DNA of 49,190 bases from a virus. Location: IMG/VR virus record IMGVR_UViG_3300020442_002423, positions 1-49,190 of that record; one strand, given 5' to 3'. This document shows, in pieces, positions 41,029-49,070 of the stretch. Below the pieces are notes generated by a model. It saw only the letters and a list, made by a program, of their open reading frames with translations. It did not search any database and was not told where the DNA came from. The position numbers were made by a program, and so were the translations under genes. Positions within the stretch are counted from its first letter, which is position 1. Every line of letters begins with the position of its first letter.

Positions 41029-41585
41029 TATGCAATACTTCCTAGATTAGACGTTACACTTTTTGGTGCAGTAATAGTACCATAATCAACATCTGTGTCA
41101 AAACGCAGATAGTCAGCATGACTATTAACAACAAAAACAAATTCGCCAAAATCTAGGTCAGTATCAAAATTAGTAGATGAGCCGCTTCCGCCACCTGATG
41201 CTGTAATTGTAAGTGTACCATTTACTAAAGTAGTTTGAATACCTGGACCGCCGTTGATTCTAAATGTATCACCGTCGTCAAAATTAGTACTACCATTATC
41301 ACATACTACTAAAAGGCCTGATAAACTAGTTGCTATTTGCACCCTGTTGCTAACTTCTGTGATGCTTATTTTATCGCCTGCAGAAAGTGTTTTAAATTGT
41401 AGATCATCTCCTACTTTTGAACTAAAAATACCTGTGCCTGTACCTAAATTGCTTGCTGTTGTACTTTCAGGTTCGCGCAGATCTAGTTCATCAAAATTTT
41501 CATTTATTTTACGAAAGGCTTCTCTAATGTCATCACCTGTGCCATCGTTTGCAAATTGCCCTATGTTGATGTTTTGTATTGTCAT
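41028..41585 (-). CDS. virion structural protein
   Basis: A 185-aa protein with an N-terminal IGQFANDGTGDDIREAFRKI segment typical of marine T4-like phage virion proteins, followed by beta-rich repeats of similar spacing (FDTDLDFGEFVFVVNSHADY and FDTDVDYGTITAPKSV). The two FDTD..DFG/DYG motifs suggest a short internal repeat. Late octamer and AAGAGGA SD precede it. Confidence 0.7.
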   Translation of the reverse strand: MTIQNINIGQFANDGTGDDIREAFRKINENFDELDLREPESTTASNLGTGTGIFSSKVGDDLQFKTLSAGDKISITEVSNRVQIATSLSGLLVVCDNGSTNFDDGDTFRINGGPGIQTTLVNGTLTITASGGGSGSSTNFDTDLDFGEFVFVVNSHADYLRFDTDVDYGTITAPKSVTSNLGSIA

Positions 41586-41603: not shown

Positions 41604-41611
41604 TATTTATC
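41604..41611 (-). promoter_or_regulatory. late-promoter octamer GATAAATA
   Basis: GATAAATA then TTGTAAGAGGATAAAATT and the ATG at 41585. It overlaps the stop of the glycine-rich gene. Confidence 0.7.
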
Positions 41612-42539
41612 AGACATTTGTATCTACGTTTGTGTTAGGAAATTGTCTTGTGTCTCCTGGCCAAACTATCCTTACAAATCCTTTACCTCCTGAACCTGCT
41701 GAACCTGTTGAACTGTAGTATGCGTACATAACACCTGCGCCACCATTACCGCCATATGATGCACCAGATTTTGCACTTCCGATACCTCCGGCCTGAGCGT
41801 TTCCTGTGCTGTAATTATATTGTCCTCCAGCACCACCAGTGCCTTCGCCCATCGAACCTACGCTTCCGCCAGCACCTCCATACTGTGAAAAGATTCCAGT
41901 ATTTGCATAGCGATCTGAACAGCCTCCGCCGCCACCACCGCCTTGTCCAGTACCTGCAGAGTTAGGTCCAGCATTTCCTCCATTGCCTGAGTATCCGCCA
42001 GCACCGCCGCCTCCACAACCGTCCCAGCCTGAACTTGAGTTGTAGCCTGTGCCGCCATTGCCGCCACCATCTCCACCATAAGTACCACCTACTGCGTTAC
42101 CGTTTTTGCCACCTTCACCACCATAGCCAGCACACACAGCCGTACTAGAAAAATAACTTAAACCACCAGCACCGCCATTGGCTCTACCAGAACTTTGTGT
42201 ATTTGTTGTGCCACCTGCGCCACCAGCACCTACTTGAAGGTTAATTGTTGCACCTGGTGTTACAGTTACGTTGTTTGCATAACCTAAGCCACCACCAGCT
42301 CCACCACTTCCACCTACTTCTGATCCACCTGATGTGCCGCGGCCACATTGACCGCCGCCGCCGCCTCCAACACAAACTACACTTACACTGGTAACTCCTG
42401 CAGGCACTGTCCATGTATGAGAACCAGCATCTGTAAAAATTTCTTGGCCTGCTGGTGGCGATGCACTTGTGTCAACAATAATGACACTTACATTATTTCC
42501 TGTATTATCAAGTGTTAGTGTAAAAGTTTCATTTGCCAA
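41610..42539 (-). CDS. glycine-rich adhesin-like protein, continuation of the giant gene
   Basis: A 309-aa protein as read from a TTG at 42539 behind GGAGAAG. Residues 1-27 (ANETFTLTLDNTGNNVSVII then VDTS) are the last strands of a Calx-beta repeat whose first part ends the upstream gene. The rest is a polyglycine domain beginning TWTVPAGVTSVSVVCVGGGG and ending GKGFVRIVWPG, paralogous to residues about 945-1413 of the giant protein. Glycine-rich repeats occur in T-even gp38 adhesins. The frame is continuous with the giant gene except for one TAG and three sense codons, so readthrough or a recent split should be considered. Confidence 0.7.
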   Translation of the reverse strand: MANETFTLTLDNTGNNVSVIIVDTSASPPAGQEIFTDAGSHTWTVPAGVTSVSVVCVGGGGGGQCGRGTSGGSEVGGSGGAGGGLGYANNVTVTPGATINLQVGAGGAGGTTNTQSSGRANGGAGGLSYFSSTAVCAGYGGEGGKNGNAVGGTYGGDGGGNGGTGYNSSSGWDGCGGGGAGGYSGNGGNAGPNSAGTGQGGGGGGGCSDRYANTGIFSQYGGAGGSVGSMGEGTGGAGGQYNYSTGNAQAGGIGSAKSGASYGGNGGAGVMYAYYSSTGSAGSGGKGFVRIVWPGDTRQFPNTNVDTNV

Positions 42540-42548
42540 GTTCTTCTC

Positions 42549-45500
42549 CTAATCAGTAAGTTGATCTGCTGTAACATTAATAGTTAAAGATGCACTGTTG
42601 TTTAGTATTGTGAAATTTCCAGTCAAACTTACACCACCAATATCTGCACTGCTTACACCTGTTATTGTGTAAGGTACGTTTGTGCCATCGGGTACATTGG
42701 TTGTGTCTAGTGTAATAGTAAAGCTCTGTCCTTCATTAATTGTAGTTGCACTTGAGGTCAACGAATATGTCGGATCATCTGCCTCTTGACTTTCTGTGTT
42801 ACTGCCCCAGAATAGAGCCATTTTTTGTTGATCCCATCCTGTTAGTGCAGTATTTAATGTTCCTTCTCCTGTGCCGCTTGATGCAGTGATTACACTGTTA
42901 TCAATAACTTCACCTAAAGTTTTATCTGTTTCCCAAATGCTGTTACTTGCTACTAGTGTAACTGTACCTTGTTCTGTATACCTATATTCATCAAATTCAA
43001 TATCTGTATCTGTATATGATACATCATCATCATTAAAAGGTAGACTACCAACCAGCACACCTCTGCGTGTAGTAGACTTACTTGTATTACCAGTTCCTAC
43101 AACAAACATTCTATTTTGTGAACTTAACGTATCATCTAGATCACAATCTAAAAATCTCATCTCATAAGAACCAGTGTGATTAGATCTCCACATTCTATTT
43201 TTAACGTTACTTAAACTTGTATCAAATGATCTTGCAAATGCACTAAAAGCACCTGTTGCTGTACCATGTCTAGCAGTTCCTACAATTACTATTCTATTGT
43301 TATCACTATCATAAGTTATGCCTCTAATATTAGGATCAAATGTTGCTCTATTAGATGCATCAAGTTCAAATTCTTGTGTCACTGCTCCATTAGAACCATT
43401 TAAAATTAAAACATGTGATCTATCACCACCTATTTGTGTAAGAGCAATTATAGGATTGCCTAAATGGTCAAGTGTTATTCCTTGTGCTTTCATATTTGTT
43501 ATAGAACTTGTATCGTGTCCATAATATCTTTCCCATTGAAGTGTTAATGAAGAATTAAATTTCCAAACTACTAGGTAAGCGTAATTGGTAGTTGCACTTT
43601 GTGGAACACCTTGTCCTACTAGATAGACATTATTGCTTGTATCAGTTATTACTCTGTATGCCGCTGAAGCATTACTGCTTGGTGCAATGCGTTTTACATT
43701 TATGACATCGCCATTAGTTGAGTCTAACGTAGCTACAAACATTCCCTGATTACTACTGTCTATATATGTACCTGTTACTACAACATTACCATTTGCACTA
43801 AATGTTATATCTTGTGGCATAGGTATATAACTTGCATTATCAGTTGTATATTTTCTGCCCCAAACTTCTGCACCAGCACTGTCTAATTTTTGTACAAAGA
43901 ATGTGTTTGTATTGTCATCGTGTTGTATAGTAACATACACGTTGTTTTGACTGTCCATTGTTGCTTTTACAAAACCCTGAACATTGCTTGTTGCATATGT
44001 TTTATCCCAAACTGGACTTCCTTTACTTGTATATCTTGTTATATGATTCGTGTAGTCATTGACTGCATTTCTTTTTCTCCACGATATAATACTTGTGCTA
44101 TCATTACCTGCAATTATTTTCATATCGTATGTACCATGTTCAGCGTCGATTGTATCTTCGTGTATTGTCATCCAATGATCATTAACGATATAAATGTTTC
44201 CATTCATATCATTGTGGCTTGAACACTGATAATATTTTAATCCATCAACACCGGGTATGTAACTTATCACACCATTAGTTGCACCTTGTCCTGTAACATT
44301 GGTTGTTGCATTTCCTGTGCCTGTTCCTTGAACATCTTTGATATAAAAAGGATGTCCGCTTGCATTTATAGTCCAACTTATTGTATCTCCTTGGTCTATA
44401 ACTAAATCTGGATTAGCACCACTAATTGTTCCGTTTCTGTCTGTAGCACTTGAAAACAAGTATGCACTTGCTCCGCTATTTGTTATATTTGCTGTGAAGG
44501 TTTGCTGTGTACCATCACTTGTGTCGTTAATAGTAACATTGATATCATCACCGCCGTTGTCTAGAGCAAGATTAAAAGTTTCAGTTCCTTCAAAAGCACT
44601 ATCTGCTGTAACATTAAAAGTTTTATTATTATTAAGAACTGTAAAGTTTTGTGTTAAACTTACACCGCTAATATCTGCACTACTTACACCTGTTATTGTA
44701 AATGGAATTGAATCTCCATTTTCTGTAAGATTGCTTGAACATGTAATTGAAAAACTACTACCCTCATTACAATTTGTTTTACTTCTATTTAATGTGTAAC
44801 TTGGTGCTTTGAATTGATTACTTGCCATAGCACCTGGCCATAGAATAAGTAAGCCGCCTGCTGTTCCTGATTCAGCTCTTGTTCTTTGACCACTTGGTGC
44901 TAATGCGTGTACTCCAACTCCGCCTGCACCTGCGCCTACTGCATAGGAAGACTCACTTGAAATAACATTACCTGCACCACCTGCTCCACCGAAGATTGCT
45001 GTACCTGCTCCACTTATAGTTTGTGATACTGTAGTGCTAGGTGTAGCACCTCTTGTATTACTTAAACCTTTTGACATTGTTGTTGCACCACCAGTACCGC
45101 CTACAACAATACCTGTACCACTAGCCCAGTCTTGTGTATAACCTTGTCCGCCACCTGATCCAGCTGTTTCATTTGGATTAGTGATTGCATCTCCTTGTGG
45201 TAATAAATTGTGTGTGCCAATTAAGAACGTGTTATTATCTGTTGCTCCTGTAGCGGCACCACCTCTTAATTGAACAGTAATGAAAGGACCTCTACTACCT
45301 TGAGCATTTGAACTAAGGTTGCTTCCATTATAATTTACGTTTGAACCAGAATGTGGGTTACTGTTTATCATATCAAATTGGTAATGGGTTTGACTAAGTA
45401 TTCCTGTACCAGTAGTAGGTGCTGATAAGTCAAATTCATTTGCTAAAGGTGTAGGAACATTACTTTGTAAAACACTCACTACATCATCGTCTGCATTTCT

Positions 45501-48500
45501 AAAAACAAAATAGTATGAATCATATGTGCCAAAATCACTTATGCTATTAATCCATTCGTTCCATCTATGTGTATAGTAATATGCCTGTTCATCGTTATTA
45601 GATTGAAAGAAATCGTTAGTTTGTCCACCATATCTAATGTAGTGAGAAATACGACTTTCGCCTGGAACATGTGCTGTTTCTATACTAATTAAAGTATTGT
45701 TTGTGGTTGGTGCACTAGCTGTATAACTGCTTGGTGCTACTGCACCATTGCGTGGATCAATTACGTTTTGTGGATACCCAGACTGTCCTATTCCGCCGGT
45801 TCCCGAACCACCTGCTCCTCCACCTATGTAAAGTTGTCCAGATTGTGATCTATAACTCTTGCCGCCAACACCACCTGATGTGCTACCTGTCCAACTTCCA
45901 GATGCTGTGCCTCCAGCACCACCTGAATACAATTGGTATGGTGATAATCCTGTTATTGCAGTAGGAGCACTTGCAGATCCGCCACCTGCTGTGTATGTTA
46001 CACCCTGCACTGTGACTGTAGTGTCGCCACCATCATTGTTACCTGCACCTCCTGCACCAACAGTGTAATTTATAACTTGTCCTGCTGTTACTGAGATATT
46101 GTTTAACCAGGCTACTGCACCACTGCCGCCACCACCTGATAATTGTCCTGCACCCAAAGCACTATTTGTGCCTGAGCCTGCACCGCCACCAACAGCCATA
46201 ATGCTTATGTTAGAAACTCCTCCTGGAACTGTAAATGTTCCTGTACCAGGATTGGTAATAACTTCACTACCACTAACCACTGTTGTGCTTGTGTCATTAA
46301 TTGTTACTTCTGCAAATACTGTAGGAGTTATAGTGTCTAATTCCATTCTAAAAGTCTCTGAACCTTCAGTAACAAAATCTTCTGATACTGTAAAACTTTT
46401 TGATGTATCTGTGCCGATTGTATATGTACCTGTTAAACTAGCATTACTAATATCAACACTACTTACACCACTAATAGTATAACCTAATTGTGTTCCTGTT
46501 ATTCCTCCCACTGTGCTGATATCTACTGTGAATGTACCACCTTCGTCTACATCAGTTACACTAGGACTTAAACTATAAGTAATTGGAACATTACTTGTGT
46601 CATTAATTAACACATCAATAGATTGACTGCCCCAATTGAAAGTCATTGTTTGTTGACCTTCAGCAATACCATCTGCTGTTAATGTGTATGTTCTTGTTAA
46701 ATCGCTTGGTACAGTTAAATTCCCTGTTAATGGTTCGCCACCTATGTCTTCACTTTCTATACCTGTTATTGTGTAAGGTATTTGTGTACCTGTAAGTACA
46801 TTTTGTGCTGTCGCAGTAAATGTTACTGTAGACCCTTCATCTACGTTTGTTGAACTAGCACTTAAACTGTATATAGGATCTGGTTTACTTGTGTCATTAA
46901 TTGTAACACTAACTTGTACAGTAGGTACATCATTAAGTGTAAGCCTAAAAGTATCTGCACCGTCATCGAATAAATTATCTTCAGACGCTGTATATGTTTT
47001 TTGCATTGTGACGCCTTGGATAAAATTATCAACAAGGTTAGCATCACTAATATCTGCTGAAGTTACACCTGTGATTGTAAACGGAATAATTGTACCACTT
47101 ACAACATTTGTTGTTTGTAGAGTAACTGTAAAACTTTGTCCTTCATCTACAGAACTTGAAGAAACTGTTAGTACATATGTTGGATCTACATCATCTTGTA
47201 CCTGTGAAATAGTTTCTTGTCCAGCAAATGCAACAACATTTTTATCGTTAAATTCTTGGAAAGCAAATAAATTATTGCCTCCTAATAAACTTCTATAATT
47301 TGTGTAATCATTATCTGTATTACCTTGGTCGTCTAAAATATCTTCTTTGGCAGTTTGTTCAGCCCACACTTTCATTTGTGCAGGCGTTGCATTTGGATTA
47401 ATTTCACCATATGTTGCAAGTAAACCTGCTACTTGTGGCGCCGCCATTGATGTGCCACTTATGTTTGTTATTCTATAACTGCTATCACTAGGATATGCAC
47501 CATCTGTAAATTTATTAACAGTACTTGTAGCACTCATTATATTAGTTCCTGGAGCATAAAGGTCTACGCCTGGACCTGTTTCTGAACTTTGAGCTTTGAC
47601 TTCTTCTCCGCTTACTAAATCGCTATCAACATTTCCAACCATTAATGCTTTTGGACTTAATGGACTTGATCCTCTATGATAATATCTTGTTCCGTACAAT
47701 AAACTTGTGTAATAATTGTTATAATCAACACCACCTTCTATATCAACTTTGTGATATTTGTTACCTGCCGCGATAACAACATTTACTCCAGCTTCTATCA
47801 GTTCGTCTGTGTCTACATCTACAGAACTTACTCTAATAGGGTGTTGATATCCAATACCGTCAAATGCACCTGTCATTCCGTAAGCGGCATTTTTACTACT
47901 ACCTGACCATGCTGTACCTCTGTAGTTACCTCCACTGATAAACATATATCTGCTTAGGTATCCCCAACTCATGTTTACAACTGTTTGTCTTTTTTGTTTG
48001 ATACCTGGTACTATAATTGCATCTGGTAATGCACTTTCGAATCTATGTTCTGAAGTATTACTGCTTATTCCAATGTTTACAGTTATTGTAGTACTGCTTA
48101 CTGCTGTAATACTAATCTCTTTATCGTAAAATGGATCTTGTCCTGTTGCATTAGGAACACCATCTCCTCTTGGGTAACTGTGCGTTGTTGCATAATCATC
48201 TTTTGCACAAACAAATGTTATTCCATAAGGAGCAATTTTAATTTTATCTCCAGCTGTAAAACTGTGTAAACCGATAGTAAGTTCCATTACACCTGTGTCT
48301 GGTTGATATGTTGCAGTAGAAGGTGTATAACTAGGAGCCTTTTTACGCTTGTGCCATTCTTTAATTATGTCAAATGCATCTGTGATTGGAATACCATTAT
48401 TTGGATCTGACGTTCCTTCTAGTCCTGCTAGTTTCACTGCATAAATTCTTGCGTTCTTTGCCCAACCATAAGTTTTTCCTGCGGCAATACCTGCACAATG

Positions 48501-49070
48501 CGTACCATGACCATCATAATCCGTGTAGTGTCCTGTAGGCATTGTGCCTGTCAGTCCACTTGCCGCATACCAATCAATTTGTTGCACTCTAGTATTACCA
48601 TTGGCATCTTGAAACTCTGGATGGTCTGCTTGTATACCACTGTCCATTATAACTACATCTACACCTTCGCCTGTAAGTGTGTATGTAAAGTCACCTGTGA
48701 CTGTGTTACTAGTATACGGATTTGTAGGAGATATCATTCTACGCAATCCCCAGTTTATAAAATCTCCTGTATCACTTGTTGTTTTTGAAAAGTCTCCTGT
48801 TTGTGAAGCTCTGTTTCCTATTTCAATATCATTTCTAATTGCAGGATTTAGTTCTACATCAAACACTCTAGGATCTTTAGTAAGTTCTTTTGCTTCATCA
48901 GGTGTTAGCATGTAATGAGTGTTTCTCTTACTTGCTGGCCTATGGTTTGCTACTCTAACATTACGCAATGGAATAAATGGCGTTGCATCTCGCTGAATCA
49001 TATCACGTTTGAATTGTTCGTAATCTACGTTTTCATTCAGTGTTACAATATATTCTTTTTCTTTTTGCAT
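42549..49070 (-). CDS. giant tail protein: subtilase, Calx-beta, glycine-rich, cupredoxin, propeller
   Basis: A 2173-aa protein. Residues 1-75 look like an I9-type propeptide. Residues 130-610 are a subtilisin-like (S8) domain with Asp143 (VVIMDSG), His188 (DGHGTHCAG), Asn437 (VVIAAGN) and Ser541 (SGTSMAAP), and a 110-residue insertion (about 247-360) of the phage TIGLHSFTAGDKIKIAP type. Three Calx-beta-like repeats fill 632-930. A glycine-rich region spans 945-1413, then another Calx-beta repeat (1424-1520). A cupredoxin-like domain (1522-1629) has His1573, Cys1616, His1619 and Met1622. A repetitive propeller-like region follows. A final Calx-beta repeat (2102-2173) is cut by TAG at 42549-42551. 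Likely a long tail fibre with envelope-degrading activity. Confidence 0.85.
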   Translation of the reverse strand: MQKEKEYIVTLNENVDYEQFKRDMIQRDATPFIPLRNVRVANHRPASKRNTHYMLTPDEAKELTKDPRVFDVELNPAIRNDIEIGNRASQTGDFSKTTSDTGDFINWGLRRMISPTNPYTSNTVTGDFTYTLTGEGVDVVIMDSGIQADHPEFQDANGNTRVQQIDWYAASGLTGTMPTGHYTDYDGHGTHCAGIAAGKTYGWAKNARIYAVKLAGLEGTSDPNNGIPITDAFDIIKEWHKRKKAPSYTPSTATYQPDTGVMELTIGLHSFTAGDKIKIAPYGITFVCAKDDYATTHSYPRGDGVPNATGQDPFYDKEISITAVSSTTITVNIGISSNTSEHRFESALPDAIIVPGIKQKRQTVVNMSWGYLSRYMFISGGNYRGTAWSGSSKNAAYGMTGAFDGIGYQHPIRVSSVDVDTDELIEAGVNVVIAAGNKYHKVDIEGGVDYNNYYTSLLYGTRYYHRGSSPLSPKALMVGNVDSDLVSGEEVKAQSSETGPGVDLYAPGTNIMSATSTVNKFTDGAYPSDSSYRITNISGTSMAAPQVAGLLATYGEINPNATPAQMKVWAEQTAKEDILDDQGNTDNDYTNYRSLLGGNNLFAFQEFNDKNVVAFAGQETISQVQDDVDPTYVLTVSSSSVDEGQSFTVTLQTTNVVSGTIIPFTITGVTSADISDANLVDNFIQGVTMQKTYTASEDNLFDDGADTFRLTLNDVPTVQVSVTINDTSKPDPIYSLSASSTNVDEGSTVTFTATAQNVLTGTQIPYTITGIESEDIGGEPLTGNLTVPSDLTRTYTLTADGIAEGQQTMTFNWGSQSIDVLINDTSNVPITYSLSPSVTDVDEGGTFTVDISTVGGITGTQLGYTISGVSSVDISNASLTGTYTIGTDTSKSFTVSEDFVTEGSETFRMELDTITPTVFAEVTINDTSTTVVSGSEVITNPGTGTFTVPGGVSNISIMAVGGGAGSGTNSALGAGQLSGGGGSGAVAWLNNISVTAGQVINYTVGAGGAGNNDGGDTTVTVQGVTYTAGGGSASAPTAITGLSPYQLYSGGAGGTASGSWTGSTSGGVGGKSYRSQSGQLYIGGGAGGSGTGGIGQSGYPQNVIDPRNGAVAPSSYTASAPTTNNTLISIETAHVPGESRISHYIRYGGQTNDFFQSNNDEQAYYYTHRWNEWINSISDFGTYDSYYFVFRNADDDVVSVLQSNVPTPLANEFDLSAPTTGTGILSQTHYQFDMINSNPHSGSNVNYNGSNLSSNAQGSRGPFITVQLRGGAATGATDNNTFLIGTHNLLPQGDAITNPNETAGSGGGQGYTQDWASGTGIVVGGTGGATTMSKGLSNTRGATPSTTVSQTISGAGTAIFGGAGGAGNVISSESSYAVGAGAGGVGVHALAPSGQRTRAESGTAGGLLILWPGAMASNQFKAPSYTLNRSKTNCNEGSSFSITCSSNLTENGDSIPFTITGVSSADISGVSLTQNFTVLNNNKTFNVTADSAFEGTETFNLALDNGGDDINVTINDTSDGTQQTFTANITNSGASAYLFSSATDRNGTISGANPDLVIDQGDTISWTINASGHPFYIKDVQGTGTGNATTNVTGQGATNGVISYIPGVDGLKYYQCSSHNDMNGNIYIVNDHWMTIHEDTIDAEHGTYDMKIIAGNDSTSIISWRKRNAVNDYTNHITRYTSKGSPVWDKTYATSNVQGFVKATMDSQNNVYVTIQHDDNTNTFFVQKLDSAGAEVWGRKYTTDNASYIPMPQDITFSANGNVVVTGTYIDSSNQGMFVATLDSTNGDVINVKRIAPSSNASAAYRVITDTSNNVYLVGQGVPQSATTNYAYLVVWKFNSSLTLQWERYYGHDTSSITNMKAQGITLDHLGNPIIALTQIGGDRSHVLILNGSNGAVTQEFELDASNRATFDPNIRGITYDSDNNRIVIVGTARHGTATGAFSAFARSFDTSLSNVKNRMWRSNHTGSYEMRFLDCDLDDTLSSQNRMFVVGTGNTSKSTTRRGVLVGSLPFNDDDVSYTDTDIEFDEYRYTEQGTVTLVASNSIWETDKTLGEVIDNSVITASSGTGEGTLNTALTGWDQQKMALFWGSNTESQEADDPTYSLTSSATTINEGQSFTITLDTTNVPDGTNVPYTITGVSSADIGGVSLTGNFTILNNSASLTINVTADQLTD

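Follow-up and report, generated by a model that had tools for sequence, protein, structure and literature searches.

Introduction

In chaperone-usher pili, another chain supplies the strand that an incomplete Ig-like domain lacks, an arrangement called donor-strand complementation. The engineered SpyTag/SpyCatcher pair is a split CnaB2 domain: its large part serves as the catcher, and its short part is a tag to which any cargo can be attached (PMC6539128). In T2-type phages such as S16 and PP01, the glycine-rich receptor-binding protein gp38 is a separate chain held on the tip of the gp37 fibre through its N terminus; T4 instead binds its receptor directly with the gp37 tip (PMC12892980). The literature that we searched on Calx-beta in phage tails, split tail-fibre domains, and subtilase tail fibres describes no split Calx-beta joint in phages.

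Here we describe a tail locus in the window, the whole 49,190-nt stretch of viral DNA analysed, in which one gene ends and the next begins inside a single Calx-beta-like domain. By analogy, the putative joint resembles gp38, the pili, and SpyTag/SpyCatcher in plan, and by test it is a member of none of them. At the level of gene order, all split records would fit a gp38-type adhesin, a separate tip protein encoded behind the fibre gene, and the contrast between fused and split forms among the window's relatives resembles that between T4 and T2. Here, however, a subtilase/Calx-beta protein forms the fibre, and contact is proposed to arise by completing one split Ig-like domain; the resemblance to gp37/gp38 is one of plan. 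In contrast to the pili, the donated element would be an F-G hairpin of two strands; the halves come from a single domain that a gene border divides, and the outcome would be one junction between two different phage proteins and not a polymer. The likeness to SpyTag/SpyCatcher is again one of plan and not of kinship: the split joint here is natural, Calx-beta-like, two-stranded, and probably non-covalent. The protein PSSM2_126 (AAX44504) of Prochlorococcus phage P-SSM2 has the same order, Calx-beta-like followed by glycine-rich, with similarity in sequence and fold, but it is an uninterrupted 485-aa chain with another N-terminal domain.

Two tail genes meet within one Calx-beta-like domain

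The locus lies on the minus strand and comprises the following features (window positions).

42549..49070, minus: giant tail gene, 2,173 aa, with a subtilase, Calx-beta-like repeats, an internal Gly_rich_2 domain, and a truncated C-terminal Calx-beta-like domain
47331..48098, minus: Peptidase_S8 (subtilase), best-scoring stretch, residues 325-580 (Pfam PF00082, E 3.2e-25; DSG, GHGTH, and GTSMA motifs visible)
46887..47186, minus: complete Calx-beta-like repeat (both halves matched by profiles; aligned)
46593..46880, minus: complete Calx-beta-like repeat (both halves matched by profiles; aligned)
46287..46580, minus: complete Calx-beta-like repeat (both halves matched by profiles; aligned)
44517..44810, minus: complete Calx-beta-like repeat (both halves matched by profiles; aligned)
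42552..42785, minus: "catcher", strands A-E of a Calx-beta-like domain, the giant's last 78 residues (alignment A3; 68-85% identity between lineages)
42549..42551, minus: TAG of the giant gene, an ordinary stop codon judging from the sequence, the relatives' borders, and TAG usage
42546..42551, minus: Shine-Dalgarno-like TAGGAG, which takes in the stop codon (-7.3 kcal/mol for the duplex with the 16S tail)
42537..42539, minus: TTG start of the cargo gene (ATG at the same place in L022/L023)
42465..42539, minus: "tag", strands F-G of the split domain, the cargo protein's first 25 residues (alignment A2, 13 sequences; model strands 86-92 and 98-104)
41610..42539, minus: cargo gene, 309 aa, tag plus glycine-rich domain (Pfam; phrog_4474)
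41661..42434, minus: Gly_rich_2 domain of the cargo, residues 36-293 (Pfam PF21722, E 1.7e-9)

On the minus strand the border reads ...CAA CTT ACT GAT TAG GAG AAG AAC TTG GCA AAT GAA ACT..., with TAG at 42551-42549 and TTG at 42539-42537. The giant ORF (49070..42549) ends ...NVTADQLTD-TAG and is followed by a 9-nt spacer, GAGAAGAAC, after which the cargo ORF (42539..41610) starts with LANETFTLTLDNTGNNVSVIIVDTS in the same frame. The minus-strand sequence and both ORFs thus bear out the initial annotation, which had placed a VTADQLTD-TAG end and a TTG start in one frame. The duplex energy of the TAGGAG motif is reached by 3.2% of random sites, and relatives have a similar motif. Homologues of the giant protein were found in L031, L032, L037, L025, L026, L028, and other records. 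The locus resembles a tail region from an uncultured T4-like phage: the neighbour gene (41031-41585) has a beginning similar to that of a baseplate tail-fibre connector, and the window also encodes a DNA polymerase and a clamp loader.

The two halves add up to one intact domain

The C terminus of the giant protein corresponds to strands A-E of the repeat and the N terminus of the cargo protein to strands F and G. Specifically, VTADQLTD+ANETFTLTLDN (start codon omitted) aligns without gaps to intact copies such as VTADSAFEGTETFNLALDN and VTADTTTEGAETFTFTLDA, and VTADQLTD+ANETF has the same length as the intact VTADTTTEGAETF of L039 and VTADSAFEGTETF of the window giant, with no residue lost. 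Catcher and tag together, minus the start codon, have the exact length of one intact repeat. Complementary parts of one domain are therefore encoded on two chains and neither part is complete, which is the arrangement characteristic of intermolecular strand complementation. The gapless match to intact repeats upholds the earlier proposal that the downstream N terminus is the missing domain end. This fit exceeds chance: a profile of the N-terminal piece matches the window with E = 6e-16 (the window itself being one of the profile's 13 rows) and the same border occurs in 12 other records.

The domain was modelled as a single read-through chain, with TAG read as Q and intact repeats in the alignment. 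The model is an Ig-like sandwich with a pLDDT of 87.3, in which tag residues 86-92 and 98-104 form strands F and G; being a single chain, it cannot prove the association of two. Comparison with solved structures gave the CALX CBD1 domain at Z 9.8 and NCX1 CBD1 at 9.4-9.7, and the best seven matches (VIA) are all CALX/NCX1 calcium-binding domains (Z 9.3-9.8, 95-100 residues aligned). Further matches include the Calx-beta domain of integrin beta4 (Z 8.8) and other Ig-like folds, for example complement C3 domains (8-9), while Foldseek alone returned weak, mixed Ig-like matches in the PDB. The Calx-beta Pfam profile PF03160 had no match at E <= 10 in the window, and an hmmscan of 18 rows at 0.1 gave no PF03160 match either. 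The name Calx-beta given to the domain at the outset is thus supported by fold, with CALX and NCX1 as best matches, and not by the Pfam profile. The cargo modelled alone gave a poor model (pLDDT 48.6), from which no polyglycine II sandwich of the gp38 type could be read; its glycine-rich domain is Gly_rich_2 by Pfam. The tag has no strands in this model, a point in favour of a joint as far as so poor a model goes.

The border recurs at the same residue in relatives

Relatives were gathered by pattern and profile scans of viral contigs. The split falls at the same residue in 12 other viral records (13 including the window), which represent six lineages of the giant protein. Written as stop, spacer in nucleotides, and start, the border is TAG-9-TTG in the window and TAG-15-GTG in L031-L034, both with the two genes in frame. 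It is TAA-11-ATG in L037/L038, TAG-10-ATG in L023, TAA-11-GTG in L025, and TAA-11-ATG in L026 and L028-L030, all out of frame. The six lineages thus use two stop codons (TAG, TAA) and three start codons (ATG, GTG, TTG) with spacers of 9-15 nt, and a common frame exists in two of them, those of the window and the L031 group. A Shine-Dalgarno-like motif of moderate strength overlaps or touches the stop in all split borders. Since stops, starts, spacers, and frames differ between lineages at the same domain residue, the split is a conserved gene border within a domain, the stop apparently being neither an error nor a readthrough signal. A downstream gene starting with unrelated sequence in relatives, which the initial annotation had named as counter-evidence, was not seen; this start is a conserved part.

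In a tree built from the giants after removal of the last domain, the split occurs in all three deep groups (window/L023; L037/L025; the L028-L031 group). Four records in which the two proteins are fused fall inside the third group of this midpoint-rooted tree, which leaves the direction of change unproven. In two fragmentary records, L024 (10146-10382) and L047 (around 1031-1057), the catcher has no tag gene behind it; the gene after the catcher starts there with MTIQNINIG, like the usual neighbour. No catcher is present in the L004 and L021 fragments, though tags are. An extra scan for catcher ends found one more catcher-only record and unrelated ORFs, and patterns built from a single sequence confirmed no relative. 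Among isolated phages, 45 records have catcher relatives, mostly in baseplate-hub proteins, and those examined were internal or single-chain; a search of isolated phages for the tag gave no clear one. Bacterial genomes yielded two weak, partial matches only.

Conservation of catcher and tag

Between lineages, the catcher is 68-85% identical over its 78 residues, compared with about 40-50% for the giants otherwise (about 45-50% over their whole length) and mostly 15-60% for the 400 residues preceding it. Codon identity at shared residues is 44-68% in the catcher and 48-62% elsewhere. Because it is no higher in the catcher, the conservation of this part is attributed, at the sequence level, to selection and not to recent transfer, and recent exchange was ruled out as its cause. 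The last Calx-beta domain of fused phages also looks well conserved, so the conservation of the catcher need not stem from a joint alone. The 13 aligned tags share eight invariant positions and the motif MAxETFTLTLD...DTS. Between L031 and L032, the tag is 81% identical, less than the cargo (92%) and the giant (96%), which counts against a joint.

Tags head different cargos, which are swapped, stacked, or fused

The tag heads not only glycine-rich proteins but also a 201-aa cargo in L025; L021 adds two more types of cargo behind tags, namely 469- and 268-aa frames that are FG-GAP-like and LamG-like by eye only. In L025, one catcher is followed by two consecutive tag genes. Two tag genes also stand in tandem in L004 (8729-10912) and L021 (4416-6542); the second L004 gene combines its tag with a complete Calx-beta-like repeat and with a glycine-rich cargo that matches the window's at 75% identity.

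The giants of L028 and of L026/L029/L030 are 98% identical over the last 600 aa, whereas their cargos are 53-54% identical. At the DNA level, divergence begins just past the ATG of the tag and the sequences rejoin after the cargo, which marks a cassette swap at the border. Additionally, L035, L036, L039, and L027 encode one chain with an intact last domain. In the split L028 and the fused L039, the cargo DNA is mostly 93-100% identical from immediately behind the domain onward, against 57-80% for their Calx-beta parts. One cargo thus serves fused on the chain in L039 and behind a tag in L028. The rebuilding of the domain by two chains in the split phage would be the simplest account.

A proposed split-domain joint and its alternatives

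We consider it likely that these genes encode a conserved split-domain joint, in which the catcher is completed by the tag of the next gene's protein. The giant subtilase/Calx-beta tail protein would end in a Calx-beta-like domain without its last two strands, and these two strands would open the next gene, whose separate translation would start from a Shine-Dalgarno-like site of its own. During assembly, the tag may complete the beta-sandwich of the catcher and so fix the cargo at the end of the giant fibre, at the place where other phages would bear the same cargo within one chain. In the window, the cargo is glycine-rich and probably a receptor-binding protein. The sequences establish the split and its conservation, the variety of tagged cargos, the tandem tag genes, the cassette swaps, and the occurrence of one cargo both fused and split; we infer receptor binding, the non-covalent association of the chains, and their place in the tail. 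As nothing but the short tag would have to be preserved, cargos could be exchanged or stacked as gene cassettes. The split domain probably acts as a plug and socket for attaching interchangeable tail-tip proteins. We also lean towards the broader reading that the split Calx-beta is a general docking standard, with one fibre accepting many tip proteins, sometimes two at once; with equal leaning, such a standard would let cargo be exchanged as genetic cassettes with the fibre untouched.

Of the four options listed in the initial annotation, the sequences give most support to the one in which two chains would complete a single domain in the virion. An assembly error or a recent nonsense mutation has a negligible probability and is already refuted: 12 further records with the same border and different spacer sequences exclude the former, and the presence of the split in all deep lineages of the giant protein excludes the latter. 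Amber readthrough that yields a little of a fused 2,486-aa protein, the hypothetical product of giant plus cargo, beside the separate products is feasible in the window phage and in L031-L034, where the genes are in frame, and 312 codons are open after the giant's TAG against 2-46 after other TAG stops. We nevertheless hold it highly improbable even in the window phage. A start codon with a Shine-Dalgarno-like site directly follows the stop, no tRNA gene and hence no suppressor tRNA lies within the 49,190-nt window, and the out-of-frame genes and TAA stops of four of the six lineages permit no fusion there. A readthrough gene is expected to keep its downstream part in frame in all homologues; here two of six lineages do so, the number expected by chance. 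Suppressed-amber readthrough, as first suggested, thus cannot be the general mechanism because stops and frames differ among relatives, which use TAA and carry the second half in another frame. A recoded TAG appears unlikely within the window, since TAG ends 8 of the 48 window genes and short extensions follow the other seven.

It is also conceivable, though unlikely, that a past cut of the gene within a Calx-beta domain left two separate proteins, which kept the stubs without joining through them, and that the cargo, a virion protein, attaches otherwise. The catchers without a tag and the tags without a catcher in fragments would agree with such inherited ends. However, halves of exact complementary length are kept across giants that are 40-50% identical, L039 has the same cargo fused, and the tag is kept on unrelated cargos, where a useless N-terminal stub is not expected on a newly acquired cargo. 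Docking of the tag on other incomplete or strand-swapping Calx-beta-like virion domains, and not on the giant's C terminus, could draw on the tagged L004 and L021 fragments and on the several further repeats in the giant. It seems very doubtful, as these repeats possess their own F and G strands, the catcher is without exactly what the tag supplies, and a tag gene directly follows the catcher in nearly all records covering that region.

If the halves of the proposed joint bind, they would be a natural forerunner of split-domain tag/catcher chemistry, with which viruses change their tail-tip proteins, and also a new protein-joining pair. The joint would explain how tail-tip modules move between phages as whole genes, and its signature, a gene starting with MAxETFTLTLD behind a gene ending in TADxxTD, would find tail-tip proteins of uncultured phages. 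It is further a warning that a stop codon lying in frame within a domain can mark a functional border between genes.

Further modules of the giant protein

The subtilase domain of the tail protein (47331-48689, minus strand), with its DSG, GHGTH, and GTSMA motifs, is conserved among the full-length relatives read. Giant residues ~226-375 (about 47946-48395, minus strand) contain an insertion of ~100 aa within this domain that is absent from L005 and L010; identity to these two is ~20% in the insertion zone and 64-87% in the flanks. The giants also contain a cupredoxin-resembling module (HPFYIK...KYYQCSxHxxMxG), located in the window at about 44130-44420 (minus strand). At the end of the L027 giant, a similar cupredoxin-like module forms the C-terminal part, replacing the glycine-rich domain.
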